Source: a virus. From it: DNA of 45,412 nt. The stretch covers positions 1 to 45,412 of the IMG/VR virus record IMGVR_UViG_3300042301_002222. The stretch is one strand, 5' to 3'. Below, in pieces: positions 7,944-35,434 of this stretch. Within the stretch, counting starts at the first letter, position 1. Each line of letters opens with the position of its first letter. The notes beneath the pieces were generated by a model that worked only from the letters and a program-made list of their open reading frames with translations, had not been told where the DNA came from and did not search any database. The position numbers and the translations under genes were made by a program.

Positions 7944-9260
7944 ATGTCTCAAACCACCTTGGTTCTACGAAGTACAGACGAGAAAAAAAGACCGAACCCC
8001 CTTACTTTACAGGACGGGCAGCTAGCTGCAAACATAGGTACTGAAGAACCTGGTTTATACTTCGCAGACACTGAGGGTAATCTCAGAAAGGTCGGTCCGT
8101 GCCATGTTGGCCCAGAACCCCCAAACTCTGGGGTTTCAGCCCCATACTTCTTGGGTCTGTGCCTAGGGGAGCTATGGTACGACACAACTGAAGGGTCTCT
8201 CAATGTTTGGAATGGCTTCTCATGGAACTCTATTCAACGGGACCCTCCCCAAGGTGCCACAGGAGTTTCGGGGGCAGTCGGGGCAACGGGTGCAGTCGGG
8301 GCAACGGGTGCGTCGGGTGTTGGAGTTGTAGGGGCGACAGGAGCCGTTGGTGCTACGGGCGTTGGAATAACCGGGGCGACAGGCGTTGGAGTAGCTGGGG
8401 CTACTGGAGCAACCGGTCCGATTGGGGTTACAGGGCCAACTGGCCCAGTCGGTGAAACCGGTCTAATTGGTGCGTCCGGGGCGACGGGAGCCGTTGGTGC
8501 GTCCGGGGCGACGGGAGCCGTTGGTGCAACCGGGGCGACGGGGGCGACAGGCGTTGGAGTAGCTGGGGCTACTGGAGCAACCGGTCCGATTGGGGTTACA
8601 GGGCCAACTGGCCCAGTCGGTGAAACCGGTCTAATTGGTGCGTCCGGGGCGACGGGGGTTGGAACAACTGGGGCCACGGGGGCGGTAGGCGCAACCGGGG
8701 CGGGGGCCACGGGGGCCACGGGAGCGACGGGAGTGGGGGCGGCGGGTGCGACTGGTGCCTCGGGAGTGAGTGGAAAAACTATACTCTCTGGGCCAGGGTC
8801 GCCAGGCTTAGCTCTTGGATTCGTGGGGGACTTCTATATTGATACAACCAATTCAACTTTCTATGGGCCAAAGACTGAAAGTACTTGGGGTACTTTCGTT
8901 TCTTTAGTTGGACCCGTGGGTCCCACTGGGCCACAGGCAACCGAAGACTCTCCAACTACCCTAACTTACGCGGCCACGGTGAACCTGGACATGGGTGTCT
9001 TAGCCGGTAAAATGGCCACCCTTGTCCTTGCTGGCCCAGTTACGTTTACGACAAGCAATCTCGAAGCCGGACGAGAAGTATCAATTCGGATCATTTGTGA
9101 CAGCACATCCCGTGCGTTCACCTTCCCGAGCTGGATATTCACTCAGTCACCGGCTACGGTGCCCTCAACTATTGCGGCAGGTAAAACAGCGATTCTCAGC
9201 GTGCGCTTCTGGGGGACGTCTAATGATGACGCTACGGCAGTTTACACGGTGCAGGGGTAA
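7944..9260 (+). CDS. Collagen-like repeat tail protein 2
   Basis: Starts at ATG 7944 with a strong AAGGAG Shine-Dalgarno. Residues 1-100 are paralogous to the head domain of the protein at 5649 (same [26 protein letters not shown] and [10 protein letters not shown] elements). Residues about 105-280 are collagen-like Gly-X-Y triplets. Residues about 285-330 ([25 protein letters not shown]) resemble a short fibre-tip module, and 345-438 are a final beta domain. A GGGTATAA element 42 bases upstream resembles the putative late promoter with one change. The collagen-coding stretch holds a 116-bp duplicated block. It is probably a trimeric adhesion fibre. Confidence 0.75.
8373..8656 (+). repeat. 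116-bp direct repeat inside collagen-like gene
   Basis: Bases 8373-8488 recur identically by eye at 8541-8656, an offset of 168 bases (56 codons, so the frame is kept). It encodes the [18 protein letters not shown] block twice. Identity at synonymous positions indicates a recent duplication or ongoing homogenisation. Confidence 0.8.
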
Positions 9261-22716: not shown

Positions 22717-25007
22717 ATGGCAGATCCCTTTTCCGGGGGACTCGGAAGTACGAAACAAGAGATTGGAATACTAACCGAGGCGAAAGAGCGAAACAAGGCA
22801 GCGTCCTTCCGGTCGAAGAAAGACGGAGAGGAAAAACAAGAGAAGAAAAAGAGAGCCCCCACAAAAGTGTCCGAGCTTTACAACTCAGGCATTACCCTAC
22901 TGAAAGCGAAAGGTTTCGTTGTTGAGATCGATGAGTCAGGTGATCACTGTAGGCACCGCATTCTGAAGCCCACGCCACCGGTAATGGTAAGGGGAATTCA
23001 GTACCCGGCAGACTTCAACCCCTTGCAGGATATCTCAGTTTACGACGACTTTGAAAAGGTCGAGTCATGCTTCCATCCTGACTTGTGTCCAGACGACGTA
23101 AGAACTTTCTGGGAACCTTTATTCAAACCGAAAGCCGGTGACTCAGATCTCGTCTCTTTCACAGAGCGGCTGCTGAAGATGAAGAGAATAAACATGAGCA
23201 AGAGTATTCATGACACGCTAAGTTACGGTCATACGTTTGACCCTGCGGCTCGGTGGGGTGGAGTTCCTGTTTCTAATCCAAGGTCGTGGGTACCCGACAG
23301 AGACTGGTTTAACCCGGTTCTTCAACTGGTCACCCTGGCTGACGTTTTCTCGATCTTTCCTGAAGCCGAGAGGGAAATGCTTAGACTAATTATTGGGCGA
23401 ATCGGGGTCGGCAGGTCAAATCACTTGCCACCGGGAAAGGACCAGCCTGTAGATCACACTGCTCGTATGGCGGGGGTGATTGTGGGTAAGGATGCTGGAT
23501 TAGGAAAGTCGACTCTCTTCAATGGAATGACCGCAGCTTTTTCCAAGTGCGGTTTTGTAACTCACACGTTTAAATCGACTGAGGATCGCTTCGGCCTTAA
23601 AGCTGCTGCTCTTAGTGACATAGCATATAAGGATGATACTTCCTTGGCATCCCTCAAGAAGTTCCTTGCTTCTGAGGAGACCAAGATTCTGATTACGAAT
23701 GGGTTAGCTTGACGGTATAGCCCCCTCTGGTGGAAACACCGGAGAGCAAACTTCCCTAAACGGGGGAACCCCGTGTGTACCACGGGCAATCTACCGTGCT
23801 AAACAAACCGAAAGGTTTGAAAGCCTAACGACTATCTCGAAAGAGAGTAGAGCCAAGCGGTTCGAAACGGGAAGACTCCCTCATGGGAGTAAGATATAGT
23901 CTGCTCTGAATGGTAACATTCAGCTGGGTGAGACCCGAGACAACCATAGCGAAGTTGTCTGAACACATGGTATTTCAAGTAGAAGAAAAGTTCGAAAAAG
24001 CCGAGCAAATTTGGCCAAAGACCGTCATATTGGTTAACTCCAATGACTGGAACAGTAAGTTTGCCTACGATCTCGACCCTGGGATCATAGATCGAATCAA
24101 GCTCATTAGCACATATAGGGAGTACGAGGTAACAAAAAACATCGAGAACACGAAAGGGACAGTGTCAGAAGGGTCTCCCGACCTTCGCCCACGAGCACAC
24201 ATTCCTTACCTCGCTAATAAGCTAGGTGTGAGTGCTGACGCGTTGTATCTTTGGTGTCTTCGCCTCGCTACCGATCGGTTCTGGGAAATTATTAACGATG
24301 TAGCTGATCCCCGCATCAATCGCCTTCAGGTTGAAGTGCGCTATTGGACCACACGACAAAGGATCCGATTCAAAGCCGATGTCACACAGGCACTCGTTAA
24401 TGCCATGGCGTTCGCACACTCGGTTCGAACGGGGTCAGACCTTAGCTTCATGCCCGAGCTGACGCCGGATGTTCTCTACGAGTATCTCAGTTCTCTTTAC
24501 TTTGTGGGTGTGGACCCGTCGTGCCAACACTTAACTGCGAGCATGAAAAAAGAGTGGGAGAACGCAGGGCGTCCGTCGACACATTACTACCAAGGTTTCC
24601 GAGAGCTAAGGTGGGAATCTGTGAGAAAGGCAATTTCCCTCGCAAGAGAGTTTCTGTTCGACGAAACGACGGGTCAGCGGCAAGAGACCAAGGACAAAAC
24701 AGCTCTGACGTTAATTCGAGAGATAATGGAAAAGCTGGTGATGAGGGATGGTTTTAAGATTGGTGGCGAGGCGAACTACGTCATTGAAAACTGGAACAAC
24801 TGCCGCCACGCTCAAGAGGAACTTGTTTTGGAAGGGAAAAAGCTAGTTGAGTCCATGGAAGACATGGACAAACAAAGACTACTCAATCCTAAGACAAATT
24901 GCTGTGACGATTGGCTCCTTGACAAGAACTACTCACCCGATGTTGCTGAAAGGTTCCGAGAATCCGCACGTAAAAAACTCTACGAGGTTAAAGGGGTAAA
25001 AGTATGA
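22717..25007 (+). CDS. Phage P-loop replicative helicase (possible primase-helicase), split by a group I intron
   Basis: Two exons: 22717-23704 and 23929-25007. Joining after GGG-T restores one frame and gives about 688 residues; unspliced RNA stops at TGA 23710. Exon 1 holds a charged N-terminus, a middle domain, and the ATPase core: GKDAGLGKST (Walker A, about residues 257-266), an IAYKDD Walker B-like element about residue 308, and ILITNG ending in the sensor Asn of a D5/SF3-type helicase. Exon 2 continues RPETTIAKLSEHMVF and VILVNSND, then a helical C-terminal part. No TOPRIM or zinc finger is obvious, so primase activity is uncertain. It unwinds DNA at the phage fork. Confidence 0.75.
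23705..23928 (+). ncRNA. Group I self-splicing intron, no internal ORF
   Basis: The 224-base element has the group I hallmarks. P1 pairs exon GGGT plus intron TA (23701-23706) with TAGCCC (23718-23723), giving a U-G pair at the 5' splice site. P2 is CTCTGGTG-GAAA-CACCGGAG (23725-23744). A GAAA-capped stem sits at 23805-23818. P7 is GACTAT (23830-23835) with ATAGTC (23896-23901), within the typical AAGATATAGTC. P8 is ACTCCC-TCAT-GGGAGT (23875-23890). P9 is CTGAATG-GTAA-CATTCAG (23906-23923). G23928 is the best terminal G because it restores the frame. It removes itself using a guanosine cofactor. Confidence 0.85.
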
Positions 25008-29414: not shown

Positions 29415-30053
29415 ATGAACATCTTTGCAGTGCATGAAGACCCGCAAATCGCGGGGGCATCCCTGCCTGACAAGCTCGTCGTAAAAATGACGACTGAGAG
29501 CTTGCAGTTACTCACACCTTGGGCGTTTAACACCTTTGGGGTGAAAATCGTAAAGCCCGGACTCAGTGGGCAACTAGCTCTCCTGGAGTCTGAAAAGCTG
29601 TTCTACGGAACAAAAGGCTTCGCCCACCACCCTTGTTCAAAGTGGCTGTACGAAACGCCAGCCAATGTTCACTGGGTCGTAGAGCACGCTTTCGGTATGG
29701 CTCAGGAGTACTGGGAACGATACAACAAACACCACGGTGCTTTGTTCGGCTTAAATGAAGTTCGGACCTTGCTCTACAGAAACTTCAACGCGGCGAGTTC
29801 GAGAGACCACTCACCGTTCGTTCAAGCTATGCCGGACCAGTACAAAGACCCAGAAAACCCGGTTCAAGCGTACCGAAATTACCTAATGGGTGAGAAAGGG
29901 TACGCTGTTTGGAAACACGGGAACCAACCCGAGTGGTGGAGCCATGAAAAACACAAACCTGCACGAGACAGATATCTCGCAGAAAAAGAACGCAAACGCT
30001 TAGAACGACTAAATGCCAAGCATCACTCAGTATCGAGAAGCCTACAAACTTAA
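29415..30053 (+). CDS. Pyrimidine-dimer glycosylase-like protein (212 aa)
   Basis: The chain begins MNIFAVHEDPQIAGASLPDK and continues LVVKMTTESLQLL. This D-P...A...DK-x-VVKM-x-x-E-x-x-QLL pattern is seen in phage proteins often related to T4 endonuclease V/pyrimidine dimer glycosylases. A His/Lys/Trp-rich middle (HHPCSKWLYETPANVHWVVE) and YRNYLMGEKGYAVWKHGNQ follow. The true catalytic role is unproven. UV-damage repair would suit a phage of sunlit water. The last 41 bases overlap nrdB. Confidence 0.55.
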   Translation: MNIFAVHEDPQIAGASLPDKLVVKMTTESLQLLTPWAFNTFGVKIVKPGLSGQLALLESEKLFYGTKGFAHHPCSKWLYETPANVHWVVEHAFGMAQEYWERYNKHHGALFGLNEVRTLLYRNFNAASSRDHSPFVQAMPDQYKDPENPVQAYRNYLMGEKGYAVWKHGNQPEWWSHEKHKPARDRYLAEKERKRLERLNAKHHSVSRSLQT

Positions 30054-30993
30054 CGGGGAATTTGAATACCCTGAGTTTTTCAAAACTTATCAGAAAGCTC
30101 GCCTTTCTCTTTGGGGTCCTGAAGAAGCACAATTTGAAAGTGATGTTCGAGATTGGCAAAGTGCAACTCAGAGCGAACGTGAGATTGTTGGGGGCATTTT
30201 GCGTGGTTTCACCATTCTTGAGACACACATTGGGGACTACTGGTCAAAGATTCCGGAGTGGTTTCCTAAGCATGAGATTGCGGCAGTGGCCCGAACCTTT
30301 GCTTTCTCTGAAGTTGTTCACGCCGAAGCATATAATCTCTTATCGGACACCCTGGGTCTAGACGAATTTGAGGCTTTCCTTGGTGACCCCATAGCCCGTC
30401 AAAAGATTGGGTACTTTCTCGGAAAGAAAAACATTAAGGAGTCCCTCGCGGTATTCAGTGGCGCTGCCGAGGGTGTCTCGCTGTTTTCTTCCTTCGCAGT
30501 CCTTCTTTCCTTGAATCTCAACGGAAGGTACAGAGGACTATCGCAAATTATTTCATGGTCAATTCAAGACGAGCAGCAGCACAGCGATACCGGAATACAA
30601 CTCTTTCGTGAGCTTATCAAGGAAGACCCTCTAACCCTGATTGAAGCAGAAGCGATTTTCCAAGGGTTTGACGCGGTACTCCGAAATGAGGACGCGTTCC
30701 TTAACCAGATCTTTGAAGGACGTACTCTCGACACCATTACTCTGCAGGACACGAAGCATTATCTTCGCTGGCGAGCAAACGACAGGTTGAATAAACTAAG
30801 AATATCTGTACCTATGTTCCACGTCGACATGGAGTCTGCGAACAGGATTAAACAGTGGTTCGACCCTATTGCTGCAGGCGCGACAAGTACAGACGTTTTC
30901 GCTCAAGCAAAGTCGGGGGACGCCTACGTTGCAAAACCGACTCAGGACTTTTTGAGAGTTAACTTAAAGGATCTGGTTCTAGACTTGGTGTAA
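30013..30993 (+). CDS. nrdB: Ribonucleotide reductase class I beta subunit
   Basis: NrdB carries the metal cofactor and starts the radical transfer to NrdA. Metal ligands can be traced: E70 (TILETHIG, the equivalent of E. coli D84), E100 and H103 (SEVVH), E153 (AAEGVS), and E187 and H190 (DEQQH). Y107 stands seven residues after E100, the place of the radical tyrosine. At 326 aa it is a short, compact version. The C-terminus (NLKDLVLDLV) likely docks on NrdA. It starts within the end of the upstream gene and is followed 36 bases later by nrdA. Cyanopodo- and cyanosiphovirus RNRs form their own class I group in published analyses. Confidence 0.92.
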   Translation: MPSITQYREAYKLNGEFEYPEFFKTYQKARLSLWGPEEAQFESDVRDWQSATQSEREIVGGILRGFTILETHIGDYWSKIPEWFPKHEIAAVARTFAFSEVVHAEAYNLLSDTLGLDEFEAFLGDPIARQKIGYFLGKKNIKESLAVFSGAAEGVSLFSSFAVLLSLNLNGRYRGLSQIISWSIQDEQQHSDTGIQLFRELIKEDPLTLIEAEAIFQGFDAVLRNEDAFLNQIFEGRTLDTITLQDTKHYLRWRANDRLNKLRISVPMFHVDMESANRIKQWFDPIAAGATSTDVFAQAKSGDAYVAKPTQDFLRVNLKDLVLDLV

Positions 30994-31029: not shown

Positions 31030-32973
31030 ATGAATACAGAACTTACCCACCCACATTGGATGAATGAAGAGGCCCTTCATACTCTCTCTAATGGCTACTT
31101 ATTAGTAGGTGAGACTCCGAAGGATATGTTTAGCCGTCTCGCAAAAACGGCGTCAAAGATAAACGAAGATCCGACACTAGACGAAGACTTGTTCCACTGC
31201 CTATGGTCCGGATGGATCGGCGCGGCTAGTCCGGTGGCTTCCAATTTTGGTACAAACCGGGGTCAGCCTATATCCTGCTTTTCTGTTCACCCTTCGGATA
31301 GCATTTCCTCTATCTACTCACACCTAAAAGAAGTAGCTCAACTCAGCAAGAGTGGGGGTGGAGTGGGCAACTACTTCGGGGAAATTCGTCCTGCAGGGTC
31401 TCCTATAACTGGGGGAGGAAAATCAATTGGCGCTGTACCCTGGATGCAGCAATACGATATTTGTGCGAGAGTCGTGAGCCAAGGGGGAGTTCGAAGGGGC
31501 TCGTTTGCATTTTACCTCCCAATAGACCACCCCGATGTGCCTGAGCTTCTGCGTGCTAAAGATCACACAAAAGGAGATCCAAGGACCTGGGTGGATTCGA
31601 ACATAGCACTCACCATAACTGATGAGTGGATAGAGTCTATGATTAAAGGAGATAAACAAAAGCATGAGTTGTTCGCAGAGGTTTTGAGAACAAGGATGAT
31701 TTCAGGTACTCCTTACCTGATCTTCATTGACAATGCTAATAACCAGAACCCGGACTGCTACAAAGAAAGGGGATTGACTGTGAAGACCAGTAATCTCTGC
31801 AGCGAAATCTTCCTTCACACCGATGAAAACCACTCCTTCGTTTGCGTCCTTAGTAGCTTAAACCTGAGTCGCTACGACGAGTTTAAGGACTGGAAGTCCC
31901 CTGTCTCATGCCGCACTGTTCCTCAAATTGGGATTCACTTCCTTGAGGCAGTCGTTAGTGAGTTCATACGCAAAGCCAAAGACAAGGTTGGTATGGGTCG
32001 GTCCGTTCGTTTCGCAGAGAAGAGCCGTGCTCTTGGTTTGGGGGTCATGGGTCTTCACTCTCTTTACCAACTACACGGGTTACCTGTGAAGTCACAAGGG
32101 GCACGAGCATTAAACATTGAAACAATTCGATGGATGAAGGAGGAAGCTGTTAAGGCTTCGAAAGAGTTGGCCGAAAGGTTTGGGGAACCGGAATGGTGCA
32201 AAGGTACCGGAATGCGCCATACGCACTTAATTGCGATTGCACCAACTAAAACAAATAGTGTAATTTGCGGAGCCGGCACTGAAGGTATAGAGCCACGAGA
32301 CCGAAACTACTACGTCGCCAAACAAGCCAAGGGCACATATGTTCGAAAGAACCAGTACCTTGAAAAAATCTTCTGCGATAGAGGCGTAGGTTCGGACGTC
32401 TGGGACCAAATTCTAGTGGCCAAGGGAAGTGTGCAGAACATTGAATGCTTGACTGAGCACGAAAAAGAAGTGTTCAAGACTGCACGAGAGGTAGACCAGT
32501 TTGAGCTTATTAAGCAGGCGGCAGATCGGCAACCCTACGTGTGTCAGGGTCAATCGCTAAATCTGTTTCCCGACCCGAAGTCGGATGCATCGTATATTAC
32601 TCGTCTGCACCTAGCGGCATGGAAAATGAAGCTAAAGTCGCTTTATTACCTAAAGTCAAGCAGCCTTCTTACGAATAAAGAAGTTGTTCCTGCTTTGATT
32701 GTGACGCGCGAGGGTTGTCCGTGGTGTATGAAGCTTAAGAACGAACTATCTATGGAGGGGGTTCGGTACGAGGAAATTACCAAAACAGAAGCAGAGGAGA
32801 AAGGTTTCTGGAACCCTGTCTGGACGACTGTACCCCAATTGTGGCTTTACAAGAAACACATTGGGGGTTACACCGACTACATAGCTTATAAACAATCGGA
32901 TAACACCGAGACGGTAAGCTCCTATGACGATTCAGACGGCACTTACAACGAATGCAAAAGCTGCGAGGCTTAA
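31030..32973 (+). CDS. nrdA: Ribonucleotide reductase class I alpha subunit with inserted glutaredoxin
   Basis: The alpha subunit reduces ribonucleotides to deoxyribonucleotides. Residues 1-540 are the catalytic barrel, with no N-terminal ATP cone. Catalytic residues: C83 and C272 as the redox pair, N255-L-C257-S-E259 as the thiyl-radical loop, and paired Tyr in LYYLKSS (about residues 539-541) for radical transfer. Residues about 550-625 are a glutaredoxin domain with C563-P-W-C566 and the TVPQ motif near 600. The chain ends in ECKSCEA, with C642 and C645 as the redox tail. So barrel, glutaredoxin and Cys tail are in one protein. The missing cone implies no dATP activity switch. Confidence 0.93.
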   Translation: MNTELTHPHWMNEEALHTLSNGYLLVGETPKDMFSRLAKTASKINEDPTLDEDLFHCLWSGWIGAASPVASNFGTNRGQPISCFSVHPSDSISSIYSHLKEVAQLSKSGGGVGNYFGEIRPAGSPITGGGKSIGAVPWMQQYDICARVVSQGGVRRGSFAFYLPIDHPDVPELLRAKDHTKGDPRTWVDSNIALTITDEWIESMIKGDKQKHELFAEVLRTRMISGTPYLIFIDNANNQNPDCYKERGLTVKTSNLCSEIFLHTDENHSFVCVLSSLNLSRYDEFKDWKSPVSCRTVPQIGIHFLEAVVSEFIRKAKDKVGMGRSVRFAEKSRALGLGVMGLHSLYQLHGLPVKSQGARALNIETIRWMKEEAVKASKELAERFGEPEWCKGTGMRHTHLIAIAPTKTNSVICGAGTEGIEPRDRNYYVAKQAKGTYVRKNQYLEKIFCDRGVGSDVWDQILVAKGSVQNIECLTEHEKEVFKTAREVDQFELIKQAADRQPYVCQGQSLNLFPDPKSDASYITRLHLAAWKMKLKSLYYLKSSSLLTNKEVVPALIVTREGCPWCMKLKNELSMEGVRYEEITKTEAEEKGFWNPVWTTVPQLWLYKKHIGGYTDYIAYKQSDNTETVSSYDDSDGTYNECKSCEA

Positions 32974-32974
32974 T

Positions 32975-33652
32975 ATGGCAAAAAGACGCTACAGGCGCTA
33001 CCCCGAGCTCACAAAAGAGCAACAGTGTTTGGTAAGAGATCATAAATGGATCGCTGGAAGACTCGCCTACGGTGCCAAGTGCTCGACGGGAGGGTACACC
33101 GGCTCTCTCACAAGAGAGGACCTTGAGTCGATAGCAAACTTTGCCTTGTGCGTAGCTGCAACTCGGTATGATCCTGATAAAAAGGTTCAGTTTAGCACCT
33201 TTGCTTGGAGAACCGCCAGAGGCTATATCCAGCACGCTTTGCGGGACTACTCCCGAATGGTGAAAACTCCGCGATGGGTTGCGACGTATAAGACCAAGGT
33301 AGACGAGCTACTGAAGCAAAAGAAGACTTACACCGAAATTGCGACAGAGTTGGGATTACCTGAATCGAAAGTAATTATGGTTGATATGACAACTCATAAC
33401 TACCATGTTTCCTACGACTCTAACCCTGAAGATTGGACCACACGAGAGTTTATTTTTAACGACGACGATGTTAAGCCCTACGTGGCTTCTCCCGAACTTG
33501 TAAGGTCTATGAAAGAACTTTCAGAGTCCGAACTCAATACTGTTGTCAAGTATGCTGAGGAAAAAGACTTGTCGCCTGAAGAGAGAGAGTGGGCCGCAGA
33601 TAAATTCTACAAATTGCAGGCAATTGCACATGGATTCACCGAGGACATTTAG
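32975..33652 (+). CDS. Phage sigma factor 2
   Basis: ATG 32975 follows the nrdA stop by one base, with a GAGG sequence before it. Residues 45-90 include LTREDLESIANFALCVAATR, YDPDKKVQFSTFAWRTARGY and then RDYSRMVKTPRW. This order (DL..A..AL..A...YDP....FSTFAW...G.I...LRD.SR.V..P) is region 2 of a sigma70-family factor running into region 3. A KTYTEIATELGLPESKV helix-turn-helix follows at about 115-131. No classical region 4 was found in the acidic C-terminal third. The protein may direct late transcription; its gene lies just before the first GGGTAAAA-driven accessory gene. Confidence 0.8.
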   Translation: MAKRRYRRYPELTKEQQCLVRDHKWIAGRLAYGAKCSTGGYTGSLTREDLESIANFALCVAATRYDPDKKVQFSTFAWRTARGYIQHALRDYSRMVKTPRWVATYKTKVDELLKQKKTYTEIATELGLPESKVIMVDMTTHNYHVSYDSNPEDWTTREFIFNDDDVKPYVASPELVRSMKELSESELNTVVKYAEEKDLSPEEREWAADKFYKLQAIAHGFTEDI

Positions 33653-33841: not shown

Positions 33842-33865
33842 TTGTGTAGGTATAGATTCTGCACA

Positions 33866-35434
33866 GTGCAAGGTTCCTTCTCATCCGATGCTCTCCAGGC
33901 GTACAAAACACTGATTGCCGAACAGCACCCCTCGGACTTTTCTGAGGAGGGAATGTACGACTTTACTCGTTGTGTAAGGAAAGACGGCACTGTGTATGGG
34001 ACGGCGGGACAGTGCAGGAAGGGTACAGAGGAGGTTAAGGAAGACGCTCCAGGGAAAAAAGGGAAGAAGACAAAGACCGAAAGGACTAAGAAGGCGGTAA
34101 AGCCAACGCCACCAGGGAAACCCCTCCATCCAGAGCTCCATTCGTCACTCACAAAACTCTCAGAGAAGCTATCGAGTAAGAAAGCGGTACTGGACACATC
34201 AAAGGGGGCCGTAACGCAGGGAAAAATGCGTTTGACCGCCAAAGTCAAGGCGCTACCCGCTGAAGAACTGAAGAAGGTTCTGAATGACCCGAGGCTGAAC
34301 GACAAACAGAGAGAGCAGGTTACTAAGCTGGTGGCCGAACGGCAACTTTTACCGGTGAGCGCCACAAAAGTTTCGGCTGTGACACAACCAAGAGCGTCAG
34401 GGGCAGGGGCAGGACCCAGTAAGGATGAAAGCGGCGGAGCAAAAGCGACGAAGAAAGAAGTTCTGGACGACATTAAGAGCATTCTTGAGGAGAATCGGGG
34501 TCCAAGAGAAGTAACCAAGAAAGTAAACTCAGCTGGTCTAACCTACGAAGAAGAAATAGCCGCGATCATGGACTCTAAGATCGAAAAGAGCAACCATGTG
34601 AGACAGGGGGACCCGAAGTACGACGGTTGGAGTCGCACCTTTGGTGAAAAGGCTAAGATGCTGGGGTCGGGTATGTTCGGCACTGCGATTCTAAGCCCGG
34701 ACGGCGAAGTTGTTAAACGAGGTGTAATTAGTCGCACAGAGGCGGCTATCGTCGACAAAATTGGTAGAGCGGACTTGGGGCCGAGGTTGATTGCTGCAGA
34801 TATCGGCGGACCCGCTGGACCTAAGGGAACGGGGGTAGACCTAAGGAACGGTCGTATCGCTATGTCAAAAGTTCAAGGGACCCCTCTAGATATGAATCCG
34901 AGTAGAGATTCCAGTAAAGCGAACACCGACGCCTATTGGAAGGCTCGTGCAGATCTGCACAGGATGGGGGTCGCACACAATGATATGCATGGGGGCAATG
35001 TTTTGGTGGATGAGAAGGGTAAAGGGCGATTCGTTGATATGGGGCTGGCACAAGACAATCCGAAAGCTGCTCTTGTGGAGGCACTAGGTGCCTTTCCGGG
35101 ACCCAGAGGAAAAAGCGGGGACTCACAGTTTTCCACCTGGGGGCCCGGTGCGGACCTAATTTACTATGCAGGAAGAAAAGATATCTCGACAAGCAAGAGG
35201 GAAGGCTTCTTGGAGGACTTAAAAGAAGGCGCACCCATCGCCTACAAAGCGTTCACAAATAAAAGCAAGGCTGTAGAAAAACTCCGACGTTTCGGGATTG
35301 ACGGGAGAGACCTAACCAAAGTCCTCACCACTAAGTGTCGCACTCCCGAAAAGAAGTACAAGGAGGGACCTTGGGCTAAGCTAAGCGACAAGCAAGCGAT
35401 GGAAGTGATCAACACGCTCTACGAGGGTATCTAG
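33866..35434 (+). CDS. Tagged effector 1: protein-kinase-like
   Basis: I choose GTG 33866, giving VQGSFSSDALQAY, which aligns with MQGSF at 40544. Module A (about residues 1-58) ends in YDFTRCVRKDGTVYGTAGQ and CRKGTE. Module B (about 120-160) is the MRLTAKVKALPAEELKKVLN helical linker. The C-terminal part, from about 255, is kinase-like: a GSGMFGTAI nucleotide loop, a VVKRG lysine, H371-N-D373-M-H-G-G-N378 as catalytic loop, and D391-M-G in place of DFG. The chain is 522 residues and strongly basic between modules. It may phosphorylate host targets. The HxDxxxxN and DxG elements are visible; substrate is unknown. Confidence 0.75.
   Translation: MQGSFSSDALQAYKTLIAEQHPSDFSEEGMYDFTRCVRKDGTVYGTAGQCRKGTEEVKEDAPGKKGKKTKTERTKKAVKPTPPGKPLHPELHSSLTKLSEKLSSKKAVLDTSKGAVTQGKMRLTAKVKALPAEELKKVLNDPRLNDKQREQVTKLVAERQLLPVSATKVSAVTQPRASGAGAGPSKDESGGAKATKKEVLDDIKSILEENRGPREVTKKVNSAGLTYEEEIAAIMDSKIEKSNHVRQGDPKYDGWSRTFGEKAKMLGSGMFGTAILSPDGEVVKRGVISRTEAAIVDKIGRADLGPRLIAADIGGPAGPKGTGVDLRNGRIAMSKVQGTPLDMNPSRDSSKANTDAYWKARADLHRMGVAHNDMHGGNVLVDEKGKGRFVDMGLAQDNPKAALVEALGAFPGPRGKSGDSQFSTWGPGADLIYYAGRKDISTSKREGFLEDLKEGAPIAYKAFTNKSKAVEKLRRFGIDGRDLTKVLTTKCRTPEKKYKEGPWAKLSDKQAMEVINTLYEGI

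Follow-up and report, generated by a model that had tools for sequence, protein, structure and literature searches.

A phage class I ribonucleotide reductase with a glutaredoxin domain inserted ahead of its C-terminal cysteine tail

Among the closest described systems is the ribonucleotide reductase (RNR) of Facklamia ignava, where, according to the available part of PMC6187632, a glutaredoxin (Grx) at the N-terminus of the radical-generating subunit NrdB was shown to be the glutathione (GSH)-dependent reductant of the enzyme, the first Grx cysteine being essential and the second needed for the full rate. That protein, ordered Grx-ATP cone-NrdB, carries its Grx on a class Id RNR (same source), as does the locus described here. 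However, the F. ignava Grx opens the radical subunit and is accompanied by an ATP cone, whereas in our locus the catalytic subunit carries it, within the tail, and Pfam matched no cone. A Grx-like N-terminus on NrdB is also reported for Francisella and viral sequences (PMC3019208, available part). As for the catalytic subunit NrdA, a single viral chain with Grx and NrdA, very probably of the kind analysed here, is already in print for two viruses (PMC6187632), and in the accessible part of that source the account is one sentence that discusses neither these viruses nor the position in the chain nor a function. The RNR of cyanophage S-TIM5 has been called subclass Id in PMC6370689, the available text of which mentions fused Grx on beta subunits only and none for S-TIM5 NrdA, and neither 'fused' nor 'fusion' occurs in the main text of PMC3653736. 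In a literature search that covered few subscription papers we found no description of where in the NrdA tail the Grx sits or of its having been gained repeatedly, and no biochemistry on any enzyme with Grx in NrdA. Grx-RNR fusions are already published, and our locus is a member of a widespread phage family.

The window, that is, the whole stretch of viral DNA analysed here (45,412 nucleotides, IMG/VR record IMGVR_UViG_3300042301_002222), has the RNR genes and features listed below. Some contigs had been fetched twice under two locus ids. Motif conservation was counted over 127 distinct post-barrel fused sequences with a tail, the window included, and tail conservation over 177 stop-ended fused ORFs, a figure that takes in four refetched stretches; both counts are among the matches listed.

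30013..30993, + strand: nrdB, radical-generating subunit of NrdBi (class Id) type, with E70, E100, H103, E153, E187, H190, Y107, W77 and G74
31030..32973, + strand: nrdA, RNR large subunit with internal glutaredoxin, 647 aa, ATG start
31030..32664, + strand: RNR all-alpha and barrel domains, residues 1-545, with C83, C257, C272 and Y539/Y540
32683..32895, + strand: glutaredoxin domain, residues 552-622, from Pfam, the AlphaFold2 model and dN/dS
32716..32727, + strand: Grx active site CPWC, residues 563-566; CPxC in 127 of 127 distinct fused sequences
32827..32838, + strand: TVPQ, cis-Pro loop, residues 600-603; [TS]VPQ in 126 of 127
32863..32871, + strand: GGY, residues 612-614; GG by pattern in 120 of 127
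32896..32949, + strand: variable linker, residues 623-640; pLDDT below 50 at 626-641, dN/dS 1.07 and 1.41
32953..32964, + strand: CKSC redox tail, residues 642-645; C..C tail in 177 of 177 stop-ended fused ORFs
32975..33652, + strand: sigma-70-like gene directly 3' of nrdA, possible ATG at 32975; nrdB-nrdA-sigma order as in S-CBWM1

The window NrdA combines all-alpha and barrel domains, three active-site cysteines, a tyrosine pair, a C-terminal CxxC and an nrdB partner, which together mark a class I NrdA. Pfam placed Ribonuc_red_lgN at residues 14-78 and Ribonuc_red_lgC on three stretches, the best being 391-541, and a direct read found C83, C257, C272, Y539, Y540, C563, C566, C642 and C645 all present, with the chain ending in NECKSCEA. 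From the roles in E. coli NrdA we take C83, C257 and C272 to be the active site and Y539/Y540 the radical path. With NCBIfam the protein scored above the cut-off of TIGR02506 NrdE_NrdA (358.1 against 341.05) and below those of its two best-scoring models, NrdE-prime TIGR02510 (535.4 against 602.25) and PRK09102 (583.6 against 620), scores by which it appears related to these two families but diverged. The closest solved structures by sequence were 6DQW and 6DQX (class Id alpha according to the fold search), and the top fold match was also 6dqw, with a TM-score of 0.98 by target length; the sequence match to the two structures ends at residues 557 and 545 of the window NrdA, leaving the Grx unaligned. 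The AlphaFold2 model, built from 42 sequences (mean pLDDT 87.7), has a Grx-like order of strands and helices at residues 555-622, flanked by stretches with pLDDT below 50 at 547-551 and 626-641.

Pfam found no match to any ATP-cone family in the window NrdA or NrdB, an absence that the first-pass annotation had already reported and had taken to mean that dATP inhibition may be lost. The absence holds and agrees with the NrdAi trait of an NrdA without ATP cone, but it is no special loss in this phage, because NrdAi and NrdAk as a group are without the cone (PMC6370689, available part). Loss of dATP inhibition is likely for the window enzyme.

The Grx domain was matched by PF00462 at residues 557-611 with a modest score (28.7 bits against a cut-off of 22.9) and is the sole match to this family within the 45 kb record. 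CPxC, [TS]VP, the GG motif and the Grx-like order of elements identify it as a dithiol glutaredoxin, the monothiol form occurring in none of the 127 distinct fused sequences among the matches listed; the glycines of GGY presumably form the GSH site. Since a single chain joins the Grx to an RNR subunit, the protein is a Grx-RNR fusion. Pfam, the residue read and the AlphaFold2 model therefore agree with the earlier proposal that a complete Grx (CPWC, TVPQ) lies between the barrel and the terminal CKSC, and barrel, Grx and cysteine tail do share one chain, as had also been proposed, the positions given for C563, C566, C642 and C645 being correct and the relay cysteines conserved.

In the two pairs scored, purifying selection acts on the domain but not on the linker behind it. 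Against the window sequence, Grx dN/dS was 0.076 for L008 and 0.029 for L010, with barrel values of 0.025-0.032 for the same pairs; four of the six pairs run were saturated for synonymous change in both of these domains. The linker gave 1.07 (L008) and 1.41 (L010) and the tail codons were identical in both pairs, linker and tail being a rough guide given their few codons. L054 is 49% identical to the window in the Grx and 76% in the barrel. The architecture is not a product of chance, because 23 aligned clade-mates, with 53-97% identity to the window NrdA, keep it and because the Grx is under purifying selection in those two pairs.

Comparison with unfused relatives locates the insertion. In these, LYY closes the barrel and a short arm with the CxxC follows, the arm of phage Mx1 ending in ASRSKDECAACEG. 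In S-TIM5 a Grx separates ILVKK from YNECAACEG, which places the domain within the redox-tail arm and ahead of the CxxC. The distance from LYY to the end is 18-51 residues in unfused phage proteins and 21-68 in bacterial ones, against 92-127 in fused proteins.

The partner subunit bears on the class of the enzyme. NrdBi is defined by Glu in place of Asp as first ligand and Trp in place of Tyr seven residues on, and a Lys marks only the NrdBi subgroup that holds the three characterised members (PMC6754362, available part). The window NrdB has the Glu and the Trp (E70, W77), and the stretch concerned, 30220-30243 (NrdB residues 70-77), has a Gly, G74, where the characterised enzymes have their near-metal Lys; by these residues it is an NrdBi outside the Lys subgroup. 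Its second-sphere S99 and D186 also fit the NrdBi row of the table in the available part of PMC6370689. Only Ribonuc_red_sm was matched in this protein by Pfam, with no Grx at the N-terminus of the Facklamia, Francisella or vibrio-phage type. Its best solved relatives include 6cwo, as well as 5olk and 6sf4, which are class Id NrdB of L. blandensis (PMC6754362, available part). The fused clade of the window (clade A) comprises 42 loci, with 33 NrdB partners scored, five not scored and four loci without NrdB in the flank; among the matches listed, all 33 scored partners have Glu and Trp and none has the Lys, against 12 of 14 unfused phage and 22 of 22 bacterial scored partners nearest clade A that do. 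Judged by sequence, the window enzyme is best classed as a class I, NrdAi, class Id-like RNR, whose NrdB has the ligands for a putative radical-bearing Mn(III)/Mn(IV) cofactor.

The window is not alone in having the insertion, and cyanophages are not its only carriers. It is present in cyanophages S-TIM5 and S-CBWM1, and it occurs also in other phages and in many uncultivated virus contigs. S-TIM5 NrdA is 62% identical to the window NrdA with the same domain order and tail, an HNH gene lying between its nrdB and nrdA, and S-CBWM1 has the same NrdA fusion and the same nrdB-nrdA-sigma order, its NrdA barrel being interrupted by an intein with an HNH match. C48C1, Delftia phage PhiW-14 and the Acinetobacter phages nACB2 and SH-Ab 15599 likewise have a Grx between barrel and CxxC tail, but their NrdB has Asp/Tyr (the NrdBk pattern) and their barrels fall outside the clade of the window. 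Twelve phage records match at least 80% of the C48C1 Grx-plus-tail query, representing nine named phages (S-TIM5, S-TIM54, S-TIM61, S-TIM66, S-CBWM1, C48C1, PhiW-14, nACB2 and SH-Ab 15599), seven of which were fetched and read, S-TIM61 and S-TIM66 being search matches only.

Overall we examined 303 sequences (the window and 302 loci), 302 of them with the barrel C-terminus. The fusion was present in 170 of 197 viral loci among the matches listed (three of the 170 being refetched stretches) and in 7 of the 23 phage records; the window and its refetch also carry it. Because the viral scans used fused queries, these shares do not measure prevalence. None of the best 80 bacterial NrdA among the matches listed carries the insertion, a figure that does not show absence from bacteria. 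The C-terminal 169 aa matched 29 plasmid records, none over more than 80%, and no fused plasmid copy was seen. A near-identity DNA search of phage records with window positions 20500-45400 picked up three short stretches that fall in methylase genes. Among the fused relatives, L003, L012, L013 and L288 have long NrdA ORFs (about 870-1000 aa), with Pfam intein matches in L003 and L288, the L003 intein lying at the active-site NLC.

The window phage probably infects cyanobacteria. A photosystem reaction-centre gene is present in two of the four related contigs tested, including that of L012 (94% NrdA identity to the window); this supports a cyanobacterial host for the group and is not proof for the window itself. 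Class II RNRs have been reported in the hosts of S-TIM5 and of other marine cyanophages (PMC6370689, available part), so such a phage may lack a host redoxin fitted to a class I enzyme.

The distribution of the fusion on the barrel tree points to more than one origin. A first quick barrel tree left out PhiW-14 and the Acinetobacter phages, which had been taken as partial. The careful barrel-only tree has 54 rows, 22 of them fused; they were obtained by identity thinning of the 281 rows left once four refetched stretches and 17 partial-barrel loci had been removed. On this tree the fused state requires three changes, two of them forced by supported branches, and a single clade for the 22 fused rows is rejected (delta lnL 285, AU p 3e-39); the insertion therefore arose at least twice, or the module moved. 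The partners tell the lineages apart as well: Asp/Tyr is found in 125 of 125 scored NrdB partners of 130 C48C1-type loci among the matches listed, and in three of three PhiW-14-type partners, and since Glu/Trp is the NrdBi and Asp/Tyr the NrdBk signature (PMC6754362, available part), the insertion is present in both lineages. Lineages separated by the barrel tree carry it at one and the same tail position.

It thus seems that the same insertion arose at least twice in this phage family, independent insertion being the simplest reading. The Grx tree, which bears on one versus two Grx sources, is weak (69 columns, four of 32 starred forks; A-type Grx lie on one side of a branch with support 82/81, B-type Grx do not), so transfer of a Grx-plus-tail module between barrels is a possible alternative. 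A third independent insertion, separating PhiW-14 and the Acinetobacter phages from C48C1, is suggested by the tree, but we do not adopt it because the AU test does not reject one shared clade for them (p 0.279).

Other redoxin genes were sought around nrdA, counting, among the matches listed, loci that had 1.5 kb or more of flank in each direction. A further Grx lies near one of 111 fused NrdAs (L207) versus 10 of 33 unfused phage NrdAs; the other 23 unfused relatives have no Grx in their fetched flanks. By source, a separate or NrdB-fused Grx was found in 4 of 14 unfused and 0 of 5 fused phage records, in 6 of 19 unfused and 1 of 105 fused viral loci, in none of 61 bacterial loci, and not in the window. 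Four of the six unfused viral loci are L023-L026, with near-identical NrdA tails. The contrast hints that the fused domain stands in for a separate Grx gene, and is only a hint because the loci are related and the flanks short. A Grx-like ORF lies directly 3' of nrdA in Atu_ph07, SCTP-2 and five unfused viral loci, while Melnitz-1, an unfused relative of C48C1 with 67.8% barrel identity, has its Grx on NrdB instead. In four of four related contigs, which may be fragments and include L008 (189.9 kb) and L012 (277.2 kb), the NrdA Grx is the sole PF00462 match; thioredoxin (PF00085) had no match in any of four related contigs, again with L008 and L012 among them. In Methylophilales phage Melnitz-1 the "hypothetical protein" at L297 3967-5175 is a Grx-NrdB fusion (Pfam Grx 3-62, small chain 89-361), and the NrdA before it is annotated as B12-dependent.

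Re-reduction of RNR can limit the speed of phage DNA synthesis. We consider it probable, with some assurance, that the window NrdA is a phage class I RNR with its own reductant in the tail. Each turnover would leave the active-site pair C83/C272 as a disulfide, which the C-terminal C642/C645 pair would reduce; the tail disulfide would in turn be reduced by the neighbouring Grx (C563/C566) through a dithiol mechanism, and host GSH would recharge the Grx. Thanks to two flexible linkers, which in the window NrdA measure about 10 and 18 residues, the Grx may face its own tail, favouring transfer in cis, and the tail could reach an active site, probably that of the partner subunit. Constraint on the Grx and conservation of CPxC and tail, taken with the demonstrated role of the Grx on F. 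ignava NrdB, make this relay the best explanation. The arrangement had been thought to make the enzyme partly independent of a host reductant; a host thioredoxin or glutaredoxin protein may indeed be dispensable, but host GSH and its reduction would still be needed.

Grx domains commonly act on glutathione mixed disulfides. The fused Grx might be an aid only, host thioredoxin or glutaredoxin still reducing the tail in vivo and the fusion mainly raising local concentration; a tail CxxC in 177 of 177 complete fused ORFs could serve outside redoxins, and 23 of 33 unfused phage relatives do without a Grx gene in the fetched flanks (both among the matches listed), yet the domain is strongly constrained and occurs in separate barrel lineages, which suggests that its benefit is more than marginal, and we regard this alternative as possible but doubtful. 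That same habit of Grx domains, together with the monothiol side activity of the F. ignava Grx (PMC6187632, available part), would suit a domain acting chiefly as a sensor or deglutathionylase, placing glutathione on RNR cysteines or taking it off and so switching the enzyme with the GSH/GSSG ratio. A second Grx cysteine in 127 of 127 distinct fused sequences among the matches listed, as dithiol tail reduction requires, makes that role unlikely. Finally the Grx, set on a low-confidence and probably flexible linker beside the barrel in the AlphaFold2 model, could itself reach the active site with the terminal CxxC as a leftover, but the C..C tail persists in 177 of 177 complete fused ORFs among the matches listed despite a freely drifting linker, and we find this most improbable.

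Taking the relay together with the barrel tree, we are evenly divided on a broader reading, in which at least two phage Grx insertions before the NrdA CxxC, in NrdAi and NrdAk, would each yield a single-chain three-disulfide relay driven by GSH only, a widespread bypass of host thioredoxin, with the metal site of the NrdAi-fused clade perhaps differing from that of Lys-bearing class Id enzymes. The fusion in separate phage lineages would suggest selection to escape the limits of host protein redoxins. In a catalytic subunit that bears its Grx, the electron order of GSH, Grx, tail and active site can be studied within one protein, and transfer in cis versus in trans in the dimer can be addressed as well.

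Other genes of the window also deserve mention. The ORF just before nrdB (29415-30053), which overlaps the nrdB start, matches pyrimidine dimer DNA glycosylase (PF03013, 26.5 bits, cut-off 23). Of two neighbouring ORFs, 22717-23712 matches the first half of primase family phrog_25243 (9-303 of 610) and 23910-25007 the second (304-608); the pair may be a split primase or an interrupted gene. A 530-aa ORF at 33842-35434 has a weak protein kinase match under the Pfam cut-off (20.6 against 31.7), and a 438-aa ORF at 7944-9260 contains collagen-like repeats (PF01391, residues 149-203).
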